Positions 38,144-53,262 of a stretch of DNA of 64,000 nt are shown here, piece by piece. The stretch covers positions 868,001 through 932,000 of the forward strand of contig WGMB01000003.1 in the NCBI GenBank assembly GCA_016125275.1, given 5' to 3'. Below the pieces are notes generated by a model. That model ran no database searches and had not been told where the DNA came from. It was given only the letters and a program-made list of their open reading frames with translations. Within the stretch, counting starts at the first letter, position 1. Every line of letters begins with the position of its first letter. Origin of the DNA: Acidobacteriota bacterium. Lineage in GTDB: Bacteria > Acidobacteriota > Terriglobia > Bryobacterales > UBA6623. A program made the translations under genes and the position numbers.

Positions 38144-39367
38144 CTACCAGTTCGTGATCGAGCCGTCGGGGCGCTGGAACAGCGGGATCGGCCGCGACTG
38201 CTCCTTCACCTCCAGCACGAGCTGCGCCTGCGACGGGTCGAACGTCACGCCCAGGCCCGGCTTGTTCACCGGGTACAGCTTGCCGGCGCGAAAATCGTAC
38301 ACCTCCGGCAGGTGCGGCGCTTCCAGCTTGCCCAGCCCGCGCATCTCCATCAGATGTGGCCCCGATGACGCCGCCAGGCAATGCACCAGCGAGGCCTCGG
38401 CCAGCGGCCCGGTGAAGTGCGGCACCAGGCCGATGTAGTGCGTCTCGCACAGCGCCGCCAGCTTCATGAACTCCGTGATGCCGCCGGCGTTCGGCAGCGT
38501 CACCCGCGAGAAGTCGAAGAGCTGGTTCTCGATGAGCATGTTGGCGTCCCAGCGGTCGCCGTAGTGCTCGCCCACGGCCAGCGGAACCTTCACCATCGGG
38601 CGGAAGGTGCGGTAGACCTCGGGGTTCTCCGAGCGGATCGGGTCCTCCACGAACAACGGCCGCAGCGGCTCGATCAGGCCGCACAGGCGCACGGCGTCGG
38701 GCAGGTCGAGGCGCGTGTGGAAGTCGATGGCCCAGTCGCCGTCCTCACCCACGCCTTCGCGGACCTGGCGGCACATTTCGGCCGCGCGGTCGACCTCGCG
38801 GCGCGCCTTGTAGCCGTCCGGGCCGGCGTCGGCGCCGTGGAAGCGGTAGGCGCGATAGCCGAACTCGATGCAGGCGCGGGCGCTTTCCTTCAAGCTGCCG
38901 CGGTCGGGGAAGCCCGTCGCGTAGCACTCCACGAAGTTGCGCGTGAGGCCGCCGAGCAGCTCGTAGACCGGCACGCCCAGCGCCTTGCCCTTGATGTCCC
39001 ACAGCGCCAGGTCGATCGCGCCGAGGGCGTGGATCTTCTCGCGTCCCGGCGGATAGAAGTAGTGCCGGTACATGAGCTGCCAGAGGTGCTCGATGCGGGA
39101 AGGGTTCTCGCCGATGATGAGGCCGGCGAGCTGCTCGATGGAGTCACGATGGCCGCCCTCGCCGATGCCGGTGATGCCGGCGTCGGTCTCGACGACGACG
39201 ATCTCGCTGGACTGGTTGAAGATGGGGCGGGTGTCGCCGCCGACGTGATAGTACTTCACGCCGGTGATCTTCATCTTCGGCAGGGCGGCATGGGCGGAAC
39301 GGGGGCCGGGGAGGACAGCGGCGGCCAGGCCGGCGGGCAGCGCTTTCAACAGGGAGCGACGACGCAT
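38144..39367 (-). CDS. exported enolase-superfamily sugar-acid dehydratase (paralogue of the 12.9-kb gene)
   Basis: A 407-residue galactonate dehydratase-like enzyme with leader MRRRSLLKALPAGLAAAV. It shares long blocks with the gene at 12852-14072 (IFNQSS, LWQLMYRHYFYPPGREK, LPNAGGITE, THYxGLVPHFTGP, SRPIPLFQRPDGSITNW). Differences near the active site include AIDFHTR for AIDYHTR, VEDPIRSEN for CEDLVRSEN and GEHYGDRW for GEQFGDRW, so the substrate may differ. TACAAT at 39379-39374 ends six bases before the ATG, with no SD: a leaderless candidate. Confidence 0.83.
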   Translation of the reverse strand: MRRRSLLKALPAGLAAAVLPGPRSAHAALPKMKITGVKYYHVGGDTRPIFNQSSEIVVVETDAGITGIGEGGHRDSIEQLAGLIIGENPSRIEHLWQLMYRHYFYPPGREKIHALGAIDLALWDIKGKALGVPVYELLGGLTRNFVECYATGFPDRGSLKESARACIEFGYRAYRFHGADAGPDGYKARREVDRAAEMCRQVREGVGEDGDWAIDFHTRLDLPDAVRLCGLIEPLRPLFVEDPIRSENPEVYRTFRPMVKVPLAVGEHYGDRWDANMLIENQLFDFSRVTLPNAGGITEFMKLAALCETHYIGLVPHFTGPLAEASLVHCLAASSGPHLMEMRGLGKLEAPHLPEVYDFRAGKLYPVNKPGLGVTFDPSQAQLVLEVKEQSRPIPLFQRPDGSITNW

Positions 39368-39402
39368 CAGCGGATTGTAGCGCCATTGCCGGCCGGCAAG
39401 AT

Positions 39403-39474
39403 CGACGGACACGAATGTCCGTCTCCACCAGGACGACGGAGCAGCCTCGGTGGGGCCGGACATTCCTGTCCGGC
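39403..39474. repeat. hairpin-forming dispersed repeat, copy B
   Basis: A 72-base relative of the 33711-33777 element. It shares the arms (here ACACGAATGTCCG and CGGACATTCCTGT), the TCTCCACCAG and GTGGGGCC inner parts, and GCAGCCTC at the centre, with five extra bases. Inner CCACC and GGTGG can extend the stem. Unlike copy A it lies between two divergent start codons. Confidence 0.8.
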
Positions 39475-44426: not shown

Positions 44427-46289
44427 CTACTGGCGCGGCACGATTCCCGCCGGCAGCGTCAGGTCCGGCCGCCGCACGTAGCGCTCCATCGCCAGCTCGA
44501 CCTTGGCGCCGGCGCCCGGCGCCAGGTGTACGCGCAAGGTGTTGCCCTGCACGGCGCGGCGGCGTCCGCCGACCGTGGCGCCGATGAAGACGTGCTCGCC
44601 GTAACCGCCGGCCTGCACCAGCACTTCCCGCGACTCCACGGGGTCCAGGTTCACCAGTTGCACCGTCACGCTGTCAGAGGTCAGCTTCTCGACCAGCGCG
44701 CCCACGTCCTTCGGCAGGCCGGGCCGGCCGCGGGAAGGGTCGAAGTAGCGCAGCCGGGCGTGCAGCGCCCACAGCTTGCTGTTGCCGAAGTAGCCGCCGA
44801 GCGTGAGCTGGGTCAGGTTGTCGGTGGCCGCCGGAGACAGGCCCAGCAGATAGTCCGCCAGACGGGTGTCCGGGCTGGTCGGGTCGTGCCGGGCCTCCTC
44901 GACCTTGCCGCGCACCGAGGCCAAGTCGCGGCGCAGCGCCTCGACCGGGAAATTGGGGTTGTTGCCTTCGAGAAATCCGATCCAGCCCTTCTTCGTGTCC
45001 AACCGCGCCAGGTCGTTGCGATCCATCGACCACAGGTAGATCTGCGTCAGCTCGCTCTCGTGCAGGTTCGGGCTGTACTGGTAGAACTCAGGCTTGCCGT
45101 TGGACTTGTAGCCCTTCGGGTCGCCGTACATGGTCGGCAGCAGCGTCTTGCCGCCCTCCACCTTCTTGTTGTCGTAGAGGATGTCGATCTGTTTGCGCAG
45201 CACGTCCACGTACTTGCGGTCTCCGGTGAGCAGGTAGGCCACGCCGAAGCCTGCGTAGGGCCCGGAGGAGTAGGTGTTGCGGCTGGCCACCTGCTCGATC
45301 TCGCCGTCATAGATGGTGAAGTTCCAGCCGTAGGTGCCCTTCCACCACTGGCCGTTGTACTCGCCGCCGGGCTCGCCGTCGAGGCCGACGTTGGTGGGGA
45401 TCATGCCGCCGGCCTTGGCGATGCGCTCGGCCCAGGCGTCCACGTATTCCAGAACCCACTGGCGGTACTTGTTCTCGCCGCTGAAGGCGTAGGCGTTGAA
45501 GCCCAGCAGCGTCGCGCCCAGGTTGAGCGGGTTGTCGCCCACTGAATCCAGATAGTCCTGGCAGTGCGCCAGCATCTTCGGGTACCAGGACATCAGGTCG
45601 AGCATCTCGCCGCGTCCGGCCGAGTTGTGCAGCAGGTGGAAGGTTCCCGGCGTCGGATCGCCGACCCAGTCATACGTCGTGGCCTTGTGGAGCATGGGCC
45701 CCATGGAGCCGGTCCAGATGCTCTTGATCAGCTTCTTCTCGGGGTCGTAGTTCTGCTCCGGCAGGTTGGGGTCGTGGCCCATGTACATCTCGGCGAAGCG
45801 CTTCATGCGCTCCTGGTACAGCGGGTTGTAGGGCGCCGCCAGGCCGTAGAGCATGAAGCCGCGCATGCCCTCGCCGGTGTGGAACCAGTCCGACTGCGTG
45901 ATGAACTCGCGATGGTAGGCCCCGTTGCGCGCCAGCTCGGTGAGCTTGGTGCGCATCTCGCCGTACTGCAGCAGGTGCCCGTCCAGGCCCTTGTCGTAGA
46001 GCTTCAGCGCGGAATCCGCGCCGCCGAGGGCGTACAGCAGCGTCCAGTTGAAGTAGGTCTCGACGGCGTCGTCGGGACCATCCAGCGTCCCCCAGCGCGG
46101 CGTGTGCAAAAGGTATCCGCGGGAGTCCACATACTTGGCCGCAAAGGCTTCGACGGCGTCGGAATTCGCCTCGAGCAGAGCCCTTTCGAGCAAGGCCCAC
46201 TCCGGCGGATCCATGGGAGTCTCGATAACGATGGCGGACTGAGCCAACAGTCCGGCCGGAAGCAACAAAGCGAGGAGGAGTCTGTTCAT
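44427..46289 (-). CDS. large exported protein of unknown function, tandem copy 1
   Basis: A 620-residue protein with a signal peptide (MNRLLLALLLPAGLLAQ). The mature part is rich in aromatic residues and helices (LLERALLEAN, FNWTLLYALGG, QSDWFHTGEGMRGF, NLGATLLGFNAYAFSGENKYRQWVLEYVDAW), which suggests an alpha/alpha-toroid like those of glycoside hydrolases and polysaccharide lyases. The last 120 residues look beta-rich (VTVQLVNLDPVESREVLVQAGGYGEH). I do not recognise a named family. The start at 46289 is the one with a signal peptide. A close paralogue lies 68 bases upstream on the same strand. Confidence 0.72.
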   Translation of the reverse strand: MNRLLLALLLPAGLLAQSAIVIETPMDPPEWALLERALLEANSDAVEAFAAKYVDSRGYLLHTPRWGTLDGPDDAVETYFNWTLLYALGGADSALKLYDKGLDGHLLQYGEMRTKLTELARNGAYHREFITQSDWFHTGEGMRGFMLYGLAAPYNPLYQERMKRFAEMYMGHDPNLPEQNYDPEKKLIKSIWTGSMGPMLHKATTYDWVGDPTPGTFHLLHNSAGRGEMLDLMSWYPKMLAHCQDYLDSVGDNPLNLGATLLGFNAYAFSGENKYRQWVLEYVDAWAERIAKAGGMIPTNVGLDGEPGGEYNGQWWKGTYGWNFTIYDGEIEQVASRNTYSSGPYAGFGVAYLLTGDRKYVDVLRKQIDILYDNKKVEGGKTLLPTMYGDPKGYKSNGKPEFYQYSPNLHESELTQIYLWSMDRNDLARLDTKKGWIGFLEGNNPNFPVEALRRDLASVRGKVEEARHDPTSPDTRLADYLLGLSPAATDNLTQLTLGGYFGNSKLWALHARLRYFDPSRGRPGLPKDVGALVEKLTSDSVTVQLVNLDPVESREVLVQAGGYGEHVFIGATVGGRRRAVQGNTLRVHLAPGAGAKVELAMERYVRRPDLTLPAGIVPRQ

Positions 46290-46357
46290 GGTACGACCTG
46301 CGGTATCCCACCAAGAGCTTCGGCCTGCCTGCCGAAGCCCTGTTCTGCGGACTGGTC

Positions 46358-48233
46358 CTACTGCCGGGGTCCGACCCAGCCGCGGTTCCACGGTTGCGCC
46401 AACGTGGGCGGGTTCACATAGCGATCCATCGAGAGCTCGAGCGTGGCTCCGGCGCCGGGGGCCAGCCGGACGTTGATCCAGCCCGCGTCGAGCGCCGTGG
46501 ATTGCCCACCCATTTTGACACCCTTGAACTGGTGCTCGCCGTAGCCGCCGGCCTGCACCTGCACATCCCGCGCCTCCACCTGGTTGGTGTTGACCAGAGT
46601 GACCGTCACCGAGTCGGCGGTGAGCTTGTGGACCAGGGCCGCCACGTCCTCGGGCATGCCGCTGCGGCGGCGCTCCGGATCGAAGTAGCGCAGCCGGGCG
46701 TGCAGCGCCCAGATCTTGCCGTGCGCGAAGTAGCCGCCCAGCATCAGCTCGGTGAGGTGATCGGTGGCCGGCGGCACGATCCGCAGCAGATAGTCGGCCA
46801 GACGGGTGTCCGGCGAGGTGGGATCGTTGCGGATCGCCTCGACCTTCTCGCGCACGGACTCGAAGTCCCGCTGCAAGGCCTGCACGGGGTAGGCGTCATT
46901 CTTGCCTTCCAGATAGCCCAGCCAGGGCTCCTGCTCCAGCGGAATCCGCTCCAGGTCCTTACGCTGCATCGACCACAGGTAGATCTCCGCCAGGCGGTCG
47001 CTGTAGGTCACCGGGCGGAACTCGTACCACTCCGGCTTGCCGTTGTGCTCGTAGCCCTTCGGGTCGCCGTACATGGTCGGCAGCAGCGTCTTGCCACCCT
47101 CCACCTTCTTGGCGTCGAAGATCAGGTCCATCTGCTTGCGCAGCACGTCCACGTAGGACTGGTCGCCGGTGAGCAGCAGGCCGTTGGCGAAGCCTGTCCA
47201 GGAAGCGGCGGTGAAGTAGTTGCGGTGGGCGATCTGTTCGAGCTCGCCGTCGTAGATGGTGAAGTTTCCAGCCGTAGGTGCCCTTCCACCACTGGCCGTT
47301 GTGCTCGCCGCCGAGCTTGCCGTCCAGGCCCACGTTGGAAGGAATCCAGCCGCCGGTCTCAGCCGCCCGGCGCTTCCAGGCGTCGAGGTAGCCGACCGTC
47401 CAGTCCTTGTACTTCTGCTCGCCGGTCAAGGCGTAGGCGTTCAGGCCCAGCAGGGTCGCGCCCAAGTTCAGAAAGTTGTCGCCGGCTGAATCGAGATACC
47501 CCTCGCAGTGCGCCAGCATCCGCGGGTACCACTTCATCAGGTCGAGCATCTCGTTGTCGCGCGCCGGGTTGTGCAGCAGATGGAAAGTGCCGGGGACCGG
47601 GTCGCCGACCCAGTCATACACCGTCGCCTGCCGAATCATGGGGCCTCGCGAGCCGGTCCAGATCGACTTGATGATCTTGTGCTCGGGATCGTAGTTCTTC
47701 GCCTCGGGGTCTTCATCCATGTACATGCCGGCGAAGCGCTTCATGCGGTTCACCAGCAACTGGTCGGTCGGGTCGGCAAAGCCCATCAGCAGGAAGCCGC
47801 GCATGCCCTCGCCGGTGTGGAACCAGTCTGACTGGGTGATGAACTCCTTGTGATAGGCCCCGTGGGCGGCGATCTCGGTGAGCTCGGTGCGCAGCTCGTT
47901 GTACTGCAGCAAGTGGCCTTCGAGGCCCTTCTTGTAGAGCTCCAGCGTGGAGTCGGAGCCGCCCAGGGCGTGCAGCAGGGTCCAGTTGTAGTAGGTCTCG
48001 ATGGCGTCGTCGGGGCCGTCCAGAGTGCCCCAGCGCATGGTGTGCAGCAGATAGCCGCGCTCGTCGATGTAGCGGTCGGCAAATTCCTCCACCGAGCGGG
48101 AATTGGCGTCGAGCAGCGCGCGCTCCAGCAGAGCCCAGTCCGGCGGCGTCATCGGCGTGTCGACGCGGACGGTCGGTTGCGCCGGCAGGACCAAGGGCAG
48201 CGCAAGCAGAACGAGGGGGGTCAGGGAGCGCAT
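46358..48233 (-). pseudogene. tandem copy 2 of the exported protein, frameshifted
   Basis: A paralogue of the 44427-46289 gene, intact in sequence but split between two frames. The N-terminal part (signal peptide MRSLTPLVLLALPLVLPA, then the same domain) reads from 48233 to GTYGWK near 47265; the rest continues in another frame to the stop at 46358. Comparison with copy 1 shows one extra T in a TTT run at 47265-47267 (copy 1 has TT in the same context near 45325). No other damage is visible, so this is either a recent mutation or a sequencing/assembly error. If corrected, the product would be about 624 residues. Confidence 0.75.
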
Positions 48234-48318: not shown

Positions 48319-49161
48319 TCAACGGGACGCCGGCGATCCCTCGTCTTGGCGGCCCCGCACGATGCGCCTGCCGGCCGTCGGCCCCCAGTGGCTGGTAATG
48401 ACCGTATACTGCCGCTCGCCGCAGCCTCCGTCGCAGTGCAGCACCACCCAGTCCCTGGTCGCGCCGAGCTGGTGAGCGCGGGCCGTGTTGGAGAACAGCG
48501 CCGTGTAGTGGCGTTCGCCGCGCTGGGTGTGCAGAACCGGCAGCCAGGCTTCGTGGCCCGGGTTGAACCGCCGCGGGGCGATGCGGCGCAGCTCGCCGGC
48601 GGCGGCGCGGTCGCGGTACTCTCGGTCCACGTCGAGCAGCTCGCTCACCGGCGGCTCGGCGTCCGCCGGCGCCCTCTCTCCGCCGCGAACGGCGCCCAGG
48701 CGCGCCTGCAGGGAATCGACGATGCCGCCGAGCCGCTTCTTGCCGATGCCCAAGATGTCCGCCAGCCGGCCGTCGTGCGCGGCGACCTCCAGCTCCTCCA
48801 GGGTGTCGATATCGAGGTCGTGGTGGATGCGTTCGGCGGTGATGCGGCCGATGCCGGGGACGGTCCGCAGCAGCGCCACCGGGTCGGCCTCGCCGCGCAA
48901 GCGGTCGAGCATCGGCAGCCGTCCCGTCACGGCCAGGGCGAAGATCGACCGCGCCAGGCTCTCGCCGACGCCGGGCAGCTCGCGCAACCCCTCCATGCCC
49001 CGCGCCTCGGCGAGCTCGCGCATCGAACGGGGGTGGCTGCGGACGGTCTCGGCCGCCCGCCGATAAGCCCGCGCGCGGAAGGGGTTGGCGCGCTGCTCTT
49101 CGAGCAGATCGGCCGTCTCCTCCAGGCGGCCGGCGATGCGGACGTTGAGCGGATGGAGCAT
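48319..49161 (-). CDS. helix-hairpin-helix protein resembling the N-terminus of PolX
   Basis: A 280-residue protein. The first about 160 residues match the 8-kDa and HhH part of family X DNA polymerases: NVRIAGRLEETADLLEEQRANPFRARAYRRAAETV, RELPGVGESLARSI, RTVPGIGRITAERIHHDL and ADILGIGKKRLGGI, three HhH hairpins. No palm nucleotidyltransferase or PHP domain follows. The C-terminal 120 residues (PVLHTQRGERHYTALFSNTARAHQLG, WVVLHCDGGCGERQYTVI) form an extra domain. Probably a DNA-binding protein without polymerase activity. Confidence 0.8.
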   Translation of the reverse strand: MLHPLNVRIAGRLEETADLLEEQRANPFRARAYRRAAETVRSHPRSMRELAEARGMEGLRELPGVGESLARSIFALAVTGRLPMLDRLRGEADPVALLRTVPGIGRITAERIHHDLDIDTLEELEVAAHDGRLADILGIGKKRLGGIVDSLQARLGAVRGGERAPADAEPPVSELLDVDREYRDRAAAGELRRIAPRRFNPGHEAWLPVLHTQRGERHYTALFSNTARAHQLGATRDWVVLHCDGGCGERQYTVITSHWGPTAGRRIVRGRQDEGSPASR

Positions 49162-49185: not shown

Positions 49186-50541
49186 TCAGCCGCGGCCGTT
49201 GGCGAGCGGAAAGCGGTCCGAATCCACGTGAGCCTGCTGGAAGACGCGCTTCACCTGCTCGACGACCTCCGGATGCTGTTGCGCAACGTCATGGCGCTCG
49301 GCCAGATCCTGCGACAGATCGTAGACCTCCACCGGCTGGTCGAGCGCCTTGCGAACGCCCTTCCACTTGCCGACGCGCGCCGCCTGCATGGCGCCGGACG
49401 GCATGGCGATCTCCCAATAGAAGTAGTCGTGCTGGGGCTGCTTCTTGCCCAGCAGGGTCGGCAGGAACGAGATGCCGTCGGTGGGCGGCGGCGTCACACC
49501 GGCCAGCTCGCAGGCCGTCGGCATGAAGTCCCAAAAAGCCCAGGGCTGCTCGGAGACCGCGCCGGCCTTCACCTTGCCCGGCCAGCGGGCGATGGCCGGG
49601 ACCCGGATGCCGCCTTCGTAGAAGTCGCGCTTGATGCCGCGCAGCCCGCCCTGGCTCTCAAAAAACGCCGGGCTGTGGCCGCCTTCCTTGTGCGGGCCGT
49701 TGTCGGACGAGAACAGGATCAGCGTGTCCTGGTCGACGCCTTTTTCCTTCAGCAGATCGAGCACGCGGCCCACGTCGCGGTCCATGCGCGTGATCATCGC
49801 GGCGAAGCCCTTCTCGACGTCCGGCCAGGGCTCTTGGGCGTAGGGGCCGAAGTCTGGCACGGGCTGGCCGTTGCCGGTGTCCGCGCCGAGCTCGTTGTCG
49901 GCGTGCGGCGTGGTGAAGGCGAGGTAGCAGAAGAAGGGCCGGCCGGCGACCTGGCCCATCCAGTCCAGCGCCGCCTCGGCGATCAGGTCGTGCGAGTAGG
50001 CGTTGTGGCGGGCGCCGCGGTTTTCGCGCAGCAGCTCGTAGGTCTTGTTCCGCCACAGGTGCGTGGGGTAATAGGTATGGGCGTGCGTCTGGCTGTAGTA
50101 GCCGAAGAACTCGTCGAAGCCCTGGTCATTGGGGATGCCGGGAGTCTGCGCCTCTCCCAAGGCCCACTTGCCGAAGGCGCCGGTGGCGTAGCCGGCCTTC
50201 TTGAGCATTTCGGCCACGGTGACGTCTTCGTCCAGCGGCGGCCGGTTGCCGTTGCCGCGCACCAGGGCGTGGCCGGTGTGGAAGCCCGTCATCAGGCAGC
50301 AGCGCGACGGCGCGCAGACCGTCGAGCCGGCGTACGTACTGGTAAAGCGCATGCCCTCGGCGGCCAGGCGGTCGATGTTCGGGGTCTGGATCCGCTGCTG
50401 GCCGAAGCAGCCGAGGTCGCCGTAGCCGAGGTCGTCGGCCAGGATGAACACGATGTTGGGCTTTTTCGGCTGCTGCGCGGGGAGCAGCGCGGGAGCGGCC
50501 AGCGTGGCGAGAAACGCGCGGCGGGAGAGCGAGTCAGGCAT
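49186..50541 (-). CDS. exported arylsulfatase-type sulfatase
   Basis: A 451-residue formylglycine sulfatase with leader MPDSLSRRAFLATLAAPALLPA (Tat-like). PNIVFILADDLGYGDLGCFG gives the metal Asp pair; VCAPSRCCLMTG is the classical Cys-x-Pro-Ser-Arg modification site near residue 81; ILFSSDNGPHKEGG holds later metal ligands. It resembles arylsulfatase A / N-acetylgalactosamine-sulfatase-type enzymes that desulfate glycans. The start at 50541 is set by the leader; the open frame continues upstream without similarity. It is the second sulfatase in the window. Confidence 0.9.
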   Translation of the reverse strand: MPDSLSRRAFLATLAAPALLPAQQPKKPNIVFILADDLGYGDLGCFGQQRIQTPNIDRLAAEGMRFTSTYAGSTVCAPSRCCLMTGFHTGHALVRGNGNRPPLDEDVTVAEMLKKAGYATGAFGKWALGEAQTPGIPNDQGFDEFFGYYSQTHAHTYYPTHLWRNKTYELLRENRGARHNAYSHDLIAEAALDWMGQVAGRPFFCYLAFTTPHADNELGADTGNGQPVPDFGPYAQEPWPDVEKGFAAMITRMDRDVGRVLDLLKEKGVDQDTLILFSSDNGPHKEGGHSPAFFESQGGLRGIKRDFYEGGIRVPAIARWPGKVKAGAVSEQPWAFWDFMPTACELAGVTPPPTDGISFLPTLLGKKQPQHDYFYWEIAMPSGAMQAARVGKWKGVRKALDQPVEVYDLSQDLAERHDVAQQHPEVVEQVKRVFQQAHVDSDRFPLANGRG

Positions 50542-50588
50542 CGTCGCTCGCGATCGTAGCACGCAGTCCCGGGCCCGCGGCCCTCGCT

Positions 50589-51593
50589 TCAGGCCGCCGA
50601 GACCCTTCGTCGTAGCAGCCCGGGCGAGGTTTGCGACAGCCCCAGCAGCCCCCACAGCAGAAACACCGCGTACGACAGCGCCTGGAACAGCAGGATGAAC
50701 GCGATCGCGTCGCTCTGCTCGAACCCGAACGGCGTGAGCAAGCTCACTGCCACGAACTGATAGATGCCCACGTAGCCCGGCGTGGACGGCAAAGCGCTGC
50801 CCAACCCCAGCCCCACCACCAGCAACATCGCCACCGACCAAGGCATCCACAGGCCGATCGAGCGCGAAGCCACCATCATCACCAGGCCGTCGAGCGCCCA
50901 GATGGCGGCGGTCAGCACGATGTAGACCACCAGCCGCTGCGCCGAATGCAGGCTGCGCATCCCCTTGAGGCCCTGCTCCAAGGTATGCTCGGCCACCGTC
51001 CGCAGCCGGTCCGGCAGCGGCAGCCGGCGGATCACCCGTTCCCAGAACGGTTCGAACAGCGGCACGACCACCAGCCCGGCCACGCCGATCGCGCCTCCCA
51101 CGGCCAGCGGCCGCGCCGTCACTTCCAGCCATTGCGGCAGCTTCGGTAGCCACAGCAGGATGCCGGCGCCGATCGCCAGCAACGAGACGGCGTCCACCAG
51201 CCGCTCACACAGCACCGTCATTAGGACGAACGTCTTGGTCAGGCCCGAGGCGCGGCTCACGATCACGGTGCGCAGCAGCTCGCCCGCCCGCGCCGGCAAG
51301 AAGCTGTTGCCCAGATAGCCGACGGCGGTCGCCCAAAAGACCGCCACGGGCGAGAAATCCGCGCCCGAGAGCAGCAGCACGCGCCAGCGCAGCGACCGCA
51401 ACACCAGCGCCAGCGACATCACGCCGAAGGCGGCGCTCACGTAGGTCAGGCGGGCCTGCCCCAGCAGCTCGACCACCCGTCCCCAGTCGACGCCGCGCAG
51501 GGAGTAGTACAGCAGCGCGGAGGCCAAACCCAACGCCGCCAGCCAGTACAGACCTTGCCGCGCGGCGCTCGTGGGCTTCGGCTCGGACTCCAC
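50589..51593 (-). CDS. flippase-like integral membrane protein (LPG synthase TM domain family)
   Basis: A 334-residue protein with about eight hydrophobic helices. It matches the lysylphosphatidylglycerol synthase TM-region/UPF0104 family: LYYSLRGVDWGRV, LRSLRWRVLL, GYLGNSFLPARAGELLRTVIVSR, CERLVDAVSLL and SALPSTPGYVGIYQ. The family acts in lipid translocation; no catalytic MprF domain is present. The start is taken as GTG at 51593 because no ATG precedes the first helix in frame; the upstream open frame has no similarity. Confidence 0.8.
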   Translation of the reverse strand: MESEPKPTSAARQGLYWLAALGLASALLYYSLRGVDWGRVVELLGQARLTYVSAAFGVMSLALVLRSLRWRVLLLSGADFSPVAVFWATAVGYLGNSFLPARAGELLRTVIVSRASGLTKTFVLMTVLCERLVDAVSLLAIGAGILLWLPKLPQWLEVTARPLAVGGAIGVAGLVVVPLFEPFWERVIRRLPLPDRLRTVAEHTLEQGLKGMRSLHSAQRLVVYIVLTAAIWALDGLVMMVASRSIGLWMPWSVAMLLVVGLGLGSALPSTPGYVGIYQFVAVSLLTPFGFEQSDAIAFILLFQALSYAVFLLWGLLGLSQTSPGLLRRRVSAA

Positions 51594-52308: not shown

Positions 52309-53262
52309 ATGTCCTTCACACGCCGCAGCTTCCTCGCCGCCGCCGCGCCGCTGGCCCTGTCCGCCGCAGCCCCCAAGGGGGGCGCGGGCGACCGCCGCCC
52401 GCTGTTCATCGTGGCCGCCTTGGCGCCGCTCGATCGGACGCGCCGGATCGATGAGGGGCTCACCAAGGAGTACCTAGCCTACCTGCGCGATAACGGCGTC
52501 GACGGCGTGCTGGTCAACGGCAGCACCGGCGAGTTCGCCTCCTTCTCGACCGAGGAGCGCAAGCGCAACCTCGAAGTCTTTCTCAAACACAAGGGCTCGC
52601 TGGCGATGATGTGCCAGGTCGGCAGCTCCAATCAGCCCGAGGCGCTGGAGCTGACCCGCCACGCTCAAGGCGCCGGCGCGGACCAGTTGCTGCTGCTGCC
52701 GCCGTTCTACTTCTCCCAGCCGTCCGACGACGGTCTGGCGGCGTTCATGGAACCGATCCTGGACGCCTCCGAGCTGCCCGTGCTGCTCTACAACATTCCG
52801 CAACTCAGCGGCGTCCAGATCACGCTGGGGCTGGTGCGCAAGCTCTCCGGCCACCCGCGGCTGTTCGGCGTCAAGGACTCCTGGGGCAAGCTCGACAACA
52901 CGCTGGGCTACATCCACGAGAAGGCTGACCTGCACGTGTTCACCGGGGCTTCGGCGCAGATCCAAGTCGTGCTGGAAGCCGGCGGAGCGGGCGCGCTGAC
53001 CGGCAACGGCAACGTGTTTCCGGCCGAGACCGCCGCCATCGTCAAGGCCTTCCGCGAGCGCGGCGATGTGGCCGCGGCACAGAAGAAGCTCGACGAACGG
53101 GCCGCGATCCTGAAGGGCTACGCCGCCGCGGAGTCCCAGAAGGCCTGCCTGGAAGCCAAGGGCCTGGGCCGCATGTACGTGCGTCCGCCGTTCGTGGACC
53201 TCACCGACGCCCAGCGCGCCGACCTGAAAGAGAAGATGCGGGCGGTCGGGGCGCTGAGCTAG
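52309..53262 (+). CDS. exported DapA/KDG-aldolase family lyase
   Basis: A 317-residue class I aldolase-type TIM barrel with an unusual Tat-like leader (MSFTRRSFLAAAAPLALSAAA). Key residues: NGSTGEF (phosphate/carboxylate loop), Tyr161 in LLYNIPQ and Schiff-base Lys189 in GVKDSWG, followed by FTGASAQI. These are shared by dihydrodipicolinate synthase, N-acetylneuraminate lyase and 2-keto-3-deoxy-acid aldolases. Export makes lysine synthesis unlikely and a sugar-acid lyase more plausible. TACAAT (52253-52258) and GGAG eight bases before the ATG indicate a normal leader. Confidence 0.82.
   Translation: MSFTRRSFLAAAAPLALSAAAPKGGAGDRRPLFIVAALAPLDRTRRIDEGLTKEYLAYLRDNGVDGVLVNGSTGEFASFSTEERKRNLEVFLKHKGSLAMMCQVGSSNQPEALELTRHAQGAGADQLLLLPPFYFSQPSDDGLAAFMEPILDASELPVLLYNIPQLSGVQITLGLVRKLSGHPRLFGVKDSWGKLDNTLGYIHEKADLHVFTGASAQIQVVLEAGGAGALTGNGNVFPAETAAIVKAFRERGDVAAAQKKLDERAAILKGYAAAESQKACLEAKGLGRMYVRPPFVDLTDAQRADLKEKMRAVGALS

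Follow-up and report, generated by a model that had tools for sequence, protein, structure and literature searches.

A helical toroid protein family of Bryobacterales without a Pfam or NCBIfam name, and its tentative assignment as glycosidase-like

Background

Toroid sugar enzymes are already known as a class, and the described families closest to the protein considered here are the GH88/GH105 unsaturated glucuronyl and rhamnogalacturonyl hydrolases, the GH76 alpha-1,6-mannanases, the GH127/GH146 beta-L-arabinofuranosidases and the AGE family of N-acylglucosamine and cellobiose 2-epimerases. Toroid glycosidases keep their active site at the inner helices of the ring; in GH127 the toroid is followed by a beta-sandwich, and catalysis needs a zinc-bound cysteine. 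Asp88, Asp149 and His193 are given as the functional residues of the GH88 enzyme UGL (PMC4528949). Two adjacent genes, designated A and B, are the subject of this analysis; they lie in a stretch of 64,000 nucleotides (the window) from contig WGMB01000003.1 of an Acidobacteriota bacterium of the order Bryobacterales, and a first-pass annotation of the window had described them as a duplicated, exported family of about 620 residues with no recognised function. The pair represents no new kind of system, but it belongs to a family that the searches reported below leave without a name, and for which a glycosidase-like function is tentatively proposed.

Predicted fold of gene A

Gene A is a single open reading frame of 620 codons, with its ATG at 46289 and its stop at 44427. 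The domains and conserved stretches on which the comparison depends are as follows.

Gene A: 44427..46289, minus strand; intact 620-residue toroid/beta-sandwich protein with a signal-like start (basis: open reading frame, relatives, model of pLDDT 94.9)
Gene A toroid domain: 44790..46208, minus strand; residues about 28-500, about seven outer/inner helix pairs read from DSSP order
Gene A C-terminal beta-sandwich: 44475..44777, minus strand; residues about 505-605, DSSP strands at 513-602
Gene A residues 73-77 (DDAVE): 46059..46073, minus strand; D73, D74 and E77 invariant in 57 of 57 members
Gene A residues 128-140 (EFITQSDWFHTGE): 45870..45908, minus strand; E128, D134, W135, H137 and E140 invariant in 57 of 57 members

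The N-terminus is hydrophobic and, judged by eye, signal-like, from which the product is predicted to be exported. Alphaproteobacterial members of the family (L023-L026) have twin-arginine-like N-termini. The description of an exported pair of about 620 residues suits gene A, which has the length and the signal-like start, but not gene B, which is broken into two frames.

The structure model of gene A was computed from the 59 rows of a wide alignment of the family (A2) and has a pLDDT of 94.9 and a pTM of 0.93; it supersedes an earlier model from 22 rows with a pLDDT of 79.5. In its DSSP string, outer helices alternate with inner ones to give about seven pairs by our count, and a strand sandwich follows at residues 513-602. 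This high-confidence model, with its two-domain architecture of a helical toroid and a small C-terminal beta-sandwich, agrees with the toroid-like and beta-rich domains that had been proposed from the sequence. Structure matches cover gene A residues 33-537. The best Foldseek E-values, about 1e-4, belong to an AGE-family protein and to GH76 (4d4c, E 1.1e-4), and GH127 (7exw, E 3.2e-4) and GH47 also appear in the Foldseek list. Among the 50 entries listed by a second aligner, which have Z-scores from 14.8 to 12.7 at 4-6 A across some 260-330 residues, AGE, GH76 and GH88 predominate, represented by 3wkf (AGE epimerase; Z 14.8, root-mean-square deviation 4.9, 300 residues aligned), 6y8f (GH76; Z 14.7, 4.8, 280 aligned) and 1vd5 (GH88; Z 14.7, 4.9, 305 aligned); AprG and 7tkv are among the others, and sugar enzymes built on a helical toroid make up most of the 50. 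At the clan level, the model and its structure matches have the toroid glycosidase-like fold, a ring of outer and inner helix pairs.

Sequence and profile comparisons

At E up to 1, neither gene A nor either piece of gene B matched a Pfam or NCBIfam model. With the threshold at E 0.01, NCBIfam likewise matched none of the 59 rows of A2, and a Pfam scan of these rows at the same threshold gave one TAT signal (the TAT_signal model reached E 0.01 in one of the 59 rows) and two single weak, unrelated matches; the Pfam models of GH88/GH105 (PF07470), GH76 (PF03663), AGE (PF07221), GH127 (PF07944), the heparinase II/III-type lyases (PF07940) and DUF2264 (PF10022) matched none of these rows. PL8, PL2, GH47 and linalool dehydratase were likewise absent from the general Pfam scans of A2, no dedicated profile comparison having been made for them. 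The 59-row profile found no match among PDB sequences at E up to 1. Matches taken as chance were those of 4gbj to gene A alone (E 0.009, spanning 68 beta-domain residues), of two PDB sequences to the first family profile (E 0.097 and 0.44), and of HTRA1 and ribosomal protein L2 to a beta-domain profile (E 0.16 or worse). Titles and opening lines of abstracts in the literature tied nothing to the toroid family.

When the family profile was compared with those of six toroid or lyase families, no probability exceeded 8%: 0.4% for GH88 (24 proteins of relatives; reversed control 2.1%), 2.0% for AGE (24 proteins; 0.1%), 0.3% for GH76 (6 proteins; 0.0%), 0.1% for DUF2264 (8 proteins; 0.7%), 7.8% over 91 columns for GH127 (20 proteins; 0.1%) and 4.6% over 25 columns for the heparinase II/III-type family (19 proteins; 0.3%). 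For GH76, six of the 17 loci listed were used and the 11 weak ones omitted, and L250, probably read in a wrong frame, was left out of the PF07940 set. For GH88 and DUF2264 the reversed control exceeded the true score; for AGE, GH76, GH127 and the lyases the true score was the higher. Under identical settings, known toroid families recognised one another at 94.5% (AGE-GH127), 85.2% (GH88-GH127), 38.5% (GH88-AGE) and 34.6% (AGE-GH76), and at only 7.4% (GH88-GH76) and 2.3% (GH76-GH127) for the weak pairs. Since known toroid families detect one another only in part, the weak scores are compatible with remote kinship, and the family may be very remotely related to the toroid families, to GH127 above all. 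Neither Pfam, NCBIfam, PDB sequences nor the six profile comparisons gave a clear match to a characterised family, and Pfam and NCBIfam supply no name, as the first-pass annotation had it. Judged from its sequences the family is real and is without a name in these two libraries, which a family catalogued only in CAZy could escape.

Invariant residues

Conservation was assessed in 57 full-length members, retained from 91 after those above 88% identity were dropped and extending down to 33% identity to gene A. All 57 keep the same 22 polar or aromatic residues, of which nine are acidic (W31, D73, D74, E77, E128, D134, W135, H137, E140, R161, N180, D182, S195, D252, N256, Y282, W286, W315, W322, N547, Q559 and E565). 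D207 is conserved in at least 90% of members, and the beta-domain contributes H566, kept in 56 of 57, beside N547, Q559 and E565, kept in every one. H137 is the sole histidine of the toroid that is invariant. By our count of helices, six of the nine invariant acidic residues (D73, D74, E77, D134, E140 and D252) lie in or just before inner helices, and residues 128-140 (EFITQSDWFHTGE) run into the second of these. The invariant residues argue for an enzyme, which is favoured because 22 residues, nine acidic, do not vary across 57 diverse members; the conserved acidic residues that were to be sought in the family are present as expected of an enzyme. A search of 297 genomes with the beta-domain by itself found at least 21 places in 9 genomes among the best 15 candidates per genome, all in open frames of at least 588 amino acids or in the C-terminal piece of gene B.

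Set against the described families, the protein shares with GH88/GH105 a helical toroid of about 300 alignable residues, and D134 and D207 start inner helices 2 and 3 by helix order alone; Asp88 of UGL presumably opens inner helix 2 in the same order. It differs from GH88/GH105 in the profile score, which is below that of the reversed control, and in its extra beta-sandwich; whereas UGL has His193, no second invariant histidine accompanies H137 in the toroid of the family. The GH76 mannanases also have the toroid, but the profile score is low, the family is longer, with a beta-domain, and its invariant pair D73/D74 is placed by our count on the first inner helix. GH127 stands at the top of the weak profile scores and is also matched in structure, but no cysteine is conserved among the 57 members, the single column where cysteine is commonest having it in 28 of 57. 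The AGE enzymes share the toroid and differ in their low profile score, in the signal-like start of the family and in its lack of a second invariant toroid histidine.

A divergent branch with a propeller partner

A FastTree tree of 68 rows, computed from the N-terminal 313 columns, contains a divergent branch (support 0.998) of L163, L161, L154 and L015, the window genome's own C6 copy included. A Sortilin/BNR propeller gene lies directly downstream of the toroid gene in four tree-placed members of this branch (e.g. L163:8919-11800) and in all eight further genes (L269-L276) of the same score range among the matches listed, for a total of 12 of 12; the eight were chosen by score range, outside the tree, and the twelve represent four genera, with eight from one genus. 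A thirteenth candidate (G406) sits at a contig end. The propeller partner accompanies none of eight genes of neighbouring branches. At L015 the toroid/propeller pair follows a toroid gene of the main group in one tight row. The best PDB sequence match of the propeller is a GH74-type oligoxyloglucan cellobiohydrolase (E 1.9e-18).

Proposed function and alternatives

Gene A, and gene B before its frame change, may encode an exported toroid glycosidase-like enzyme that cleaves a glycosidic bond, an assignment to which we give slightly less than an even chance. A ring of helix pairs would hold an acidic pocket at the starts of the inner helices, with the small beta-sandwich behind it, and a glycosidic bond would be cleaved, probably on oligosaccharides near the chain end. 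Acid/base chemistry would be carried out by the carboxylates of D73, D74 and E77 (inner helix 1), E128, D134 and E140 (around inner helix 2) and D252 (before inner helix 4), with H137 assisting and W135, W315 and W322 stacking on the sugar. The hydrolase activity and the glycan substrate of gene A are putative. We infer a carbohydrate-active role with the help of the fold class and of the GH74-like partner gene in one divergent branch; to this extent the carbohydrate-active role suggested by the first-pass annotation is retained, whereas the neighbourhood argument offered for it is lost.

A number of observations weigh against this assignment. No sequence or profile comparison convincingly links the family to any known glycosidase. 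The TM-scores from Foldseek are low, reaching no more than 0.35 by query length and 0.53 by target length; the structure matches are tied across families of differing chemistry and include non-sugar proteins such as the phage tail protein 7tkv; and the top Z, 14.8, lies near 14, the typical best score of this aligner for helical models without a clear match. Because of this tie, and of a best Z-score typical of unmatched helical models, the structure evidence gives a fold class and no single family. That the invariant residues share one pocket is a prediction from helix order. The BNR propeller partner also matches Ycf48 propellers, and the branch that carries it is just 35-38% identical to gene A; among the eight neighbour types compared with arbitrary loci, a higher count near the family is limited to the BNR gene and an ABC ATPase.

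A bolder form of the glycosidase-like assignment, which we consider doubtful, is that the proteins found a glycoside hydrolase or lyase family of their own, in which an acid-rich pocket of D73/D74/E77 and E128/D134/H137/E140 would be completed by Q559, E565 and H566, paralogs would have expanded in Bryobacterales, and the divergent branch would act with its GH74-like propeller on the same glycan; the catalytic arrangement would then be unlike that of known toroid enzymes. The overall plan of toroid and C-terminal beta-sandwich is also that of polysaccharide or oligosaccharide lyases of the PL8, PL15, PL17 and PL21 kind, so that tyrosine, asparagine, histidine and arginine of the toroid with a histidine of the beta-domain might instead perform beta-elimination on a uronate-containing chain. 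The invariance of N180, N256, Y282, R161 and H137, the near-invariance of H566 and the presence of PL2 (2v8j) at Foldseek rank 31 (E 1.1e-3) are consistent with such a lyase, but carboxylates and tryptophan account for 14 of the 22 invariant positions, the heparinase II/III-type profile score is low, and the beta-domain of about 100 residues is far smaller than in those lyases, which makes this explanation unlikely.

Also to be weighed is an AGE-type sugar isomerase or epimerase, or another toroid enzyme such as a dehydratase, resembling the glycosidases in fold and no further. Both structure programs place AGE epimerases near the top of their lists; AGE catalysis, however, uses several histidines of later inner helices, where the family offers H137 alone in the toroid, the AGE profile score is only 2.0%, and a signal-like start is unusual for AGE enzymes, so this explanation appears quite improbable. 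Least probable, with only a slight chance of being right, is an exported protein that binds glycans or sits at the surface, non-catalytic and built on the scaffold of a former enzyme: it would suit the many copies per genome and the want of a fixed enzyme partner beyond one branch, but invariant acidic residues in 57 divergent members are unexpected in a pseudo-enzyme.

Gene B and the age of the gene pair

Gene B lies directly upstream of gene A and switches frame near 47,266-47,271.

Gene B: 46358..48233, minus strand; paralog of gene A, in two frames here
Gene B N-terminal open piece: 47271..48233, minus strand; 321 amino acids
Gene B C-terminal open piece: 46358..47266, minus strand; 302 amino acids (46361-47266) and stop

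Both pieces are free of internal stops, in different frames, and a search of the genome itself returns gene B as two pieces. Among intact genes, L155 and L152 rank first or close to first against both halves, with 73-76% identity to the first and 68% to the second; for the C-terminal half L020 outscores L160 yet ranks below L155 and L152. As L155 and L152 match both halves, gene B looks like a single gene with a frame change, which would be either a real lesion or an assembly or sequencing error. A programmed frameshift is unsupported, because L152, L155 and L160 align across both halves in one frame.

The N-terminal part of gene B is 69.6% identical to gene A. In the tree, gene A joins L151, from another genome of the same bacterial family (support 0.877), and gene B joins L152, L155 and L160 (support 0.987). 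A recent tandem duplication is unsupported, each paralog having separate orthologs; since A and B group with different genes of other genomes, we read them as old paralogs that predate the divergence of these genera despite their adjacency. The first-pass annotation was right that they are paralogs, but its duplication is not a fresh one. Tandem pairs of family genes occur also at L164, L165 and L015, and the genome of the window has two more members, L029 (same contig, 49%) and L031 (C6, 37%).

Distribution of the family

Six short gene A peptides, scanned against the genome_contigs collection, yielded 31 candidate stretches, of which 26 encode relatives; by record title these are 21 of Acidobacteriota type, one from Acidimicrobiia and four from three alphaproteobacterial genomes. 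The sequence titled Acidimicrobiia (L001, VFZE01000043.1) is base-identical over the 4.8 kb checked to L066 (G513), which is filed in Bryobacterales, the order of the window, and its title is on that account probably wrong. By profile search, 11 of 396 genomes across the phylum and 80 of 200 genomes of the order have the family, the genome of the window being included in both counts, with up to nine matching stretches per genome in the order sample, pieces of one gene being counted apart. The best reading of these searches is that the family is common in Bryobacterales.

Genomic neighbourhood

Near genes A and B are a sulfatase domain (49189-50700), an enolase-superfamily protein (38144-39463, minus strand) and a DHDPS-like protein (52309-53262, plus strand). 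The second of these is sugar-acid dehydratase-like and the third DHDPS/KDG-aldolase-like, and both have, by eye, twin-arginine-like export signals, which are unusual on enzymes of cytoplasmic sugar-acid pathways. The product of 48319-49161 (minus strand) has the N-terminal HHH domains of PolX type (HHH_8 and HHH_5) and no polymerase domain by Pfam.

Twenty family loci were set against 20 arbitrary ones, which were taken from eight of the genomes concerned at hand-chosen round coordinates, unmatched genome by genome; the models used for counting were built from family-side genes. Eight neighbour types were counted, the dehydratase, SDR, aldolase and 6PGDH-like types of the window lying outside the individual counts. 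Sulfatases were present at 4 family loci versus 6 arbitrary ones, DUF1501 genes at 5 versus 5, PSD1-type genes at 5 versus 7, beta-barrel proteins at 2 versus 7, BNR genes at 3 versus 0, an ABC ATPase at 4 versus 1, one MR_MLE type at 0 versus 2 and an amidohydrolase at 0 versus 0. The recurrent sulfatase, DUF1501/PSD1 and beta-barrel neighbours of a first clustering are rejected, arbitrary loci holding as many or more. The sulfatase-rich setting, previously taken as evidence of a carbohydrate-related role, fails as an argument because arbitrary loci carry sulfatases at least as often.

The direct neighbours of family genes vary by locus. Genes of a GH78 rhamnosidase and of GH95 lie about 4-7 kb from a family member at L014:3-5179, an observation counted in favour of the glycosidase-like assignment. 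At L004:11991-19288 and at L013 a family gene is directly upstream of a LacI-like regulator and of genes whose translations resemble an inositol (iol) operon. The alphaproteobacterial loci L024:8915-12962 and L025:8992-13795 have the order cytochrome c, toroid and NHL propeller, with one additional gene between toroid and propeller in L025; the downstream protein of L157/L159 is 25% identical to the alphaproteobacterial NHL propeller.

Conclusions

Bryobacterales are widespread and mostly uncultured. If the glycosidase-like assignment is correct, a multi-copy enzyme family of export type that has no Pfam or NCBIfam name would constitute a sizeable blind spot in predictions of glycan use by Bryobacterales. 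Given the invariant residues and a propeller partner specific to one branch, the function would be directly open to test with a few purified proteins.

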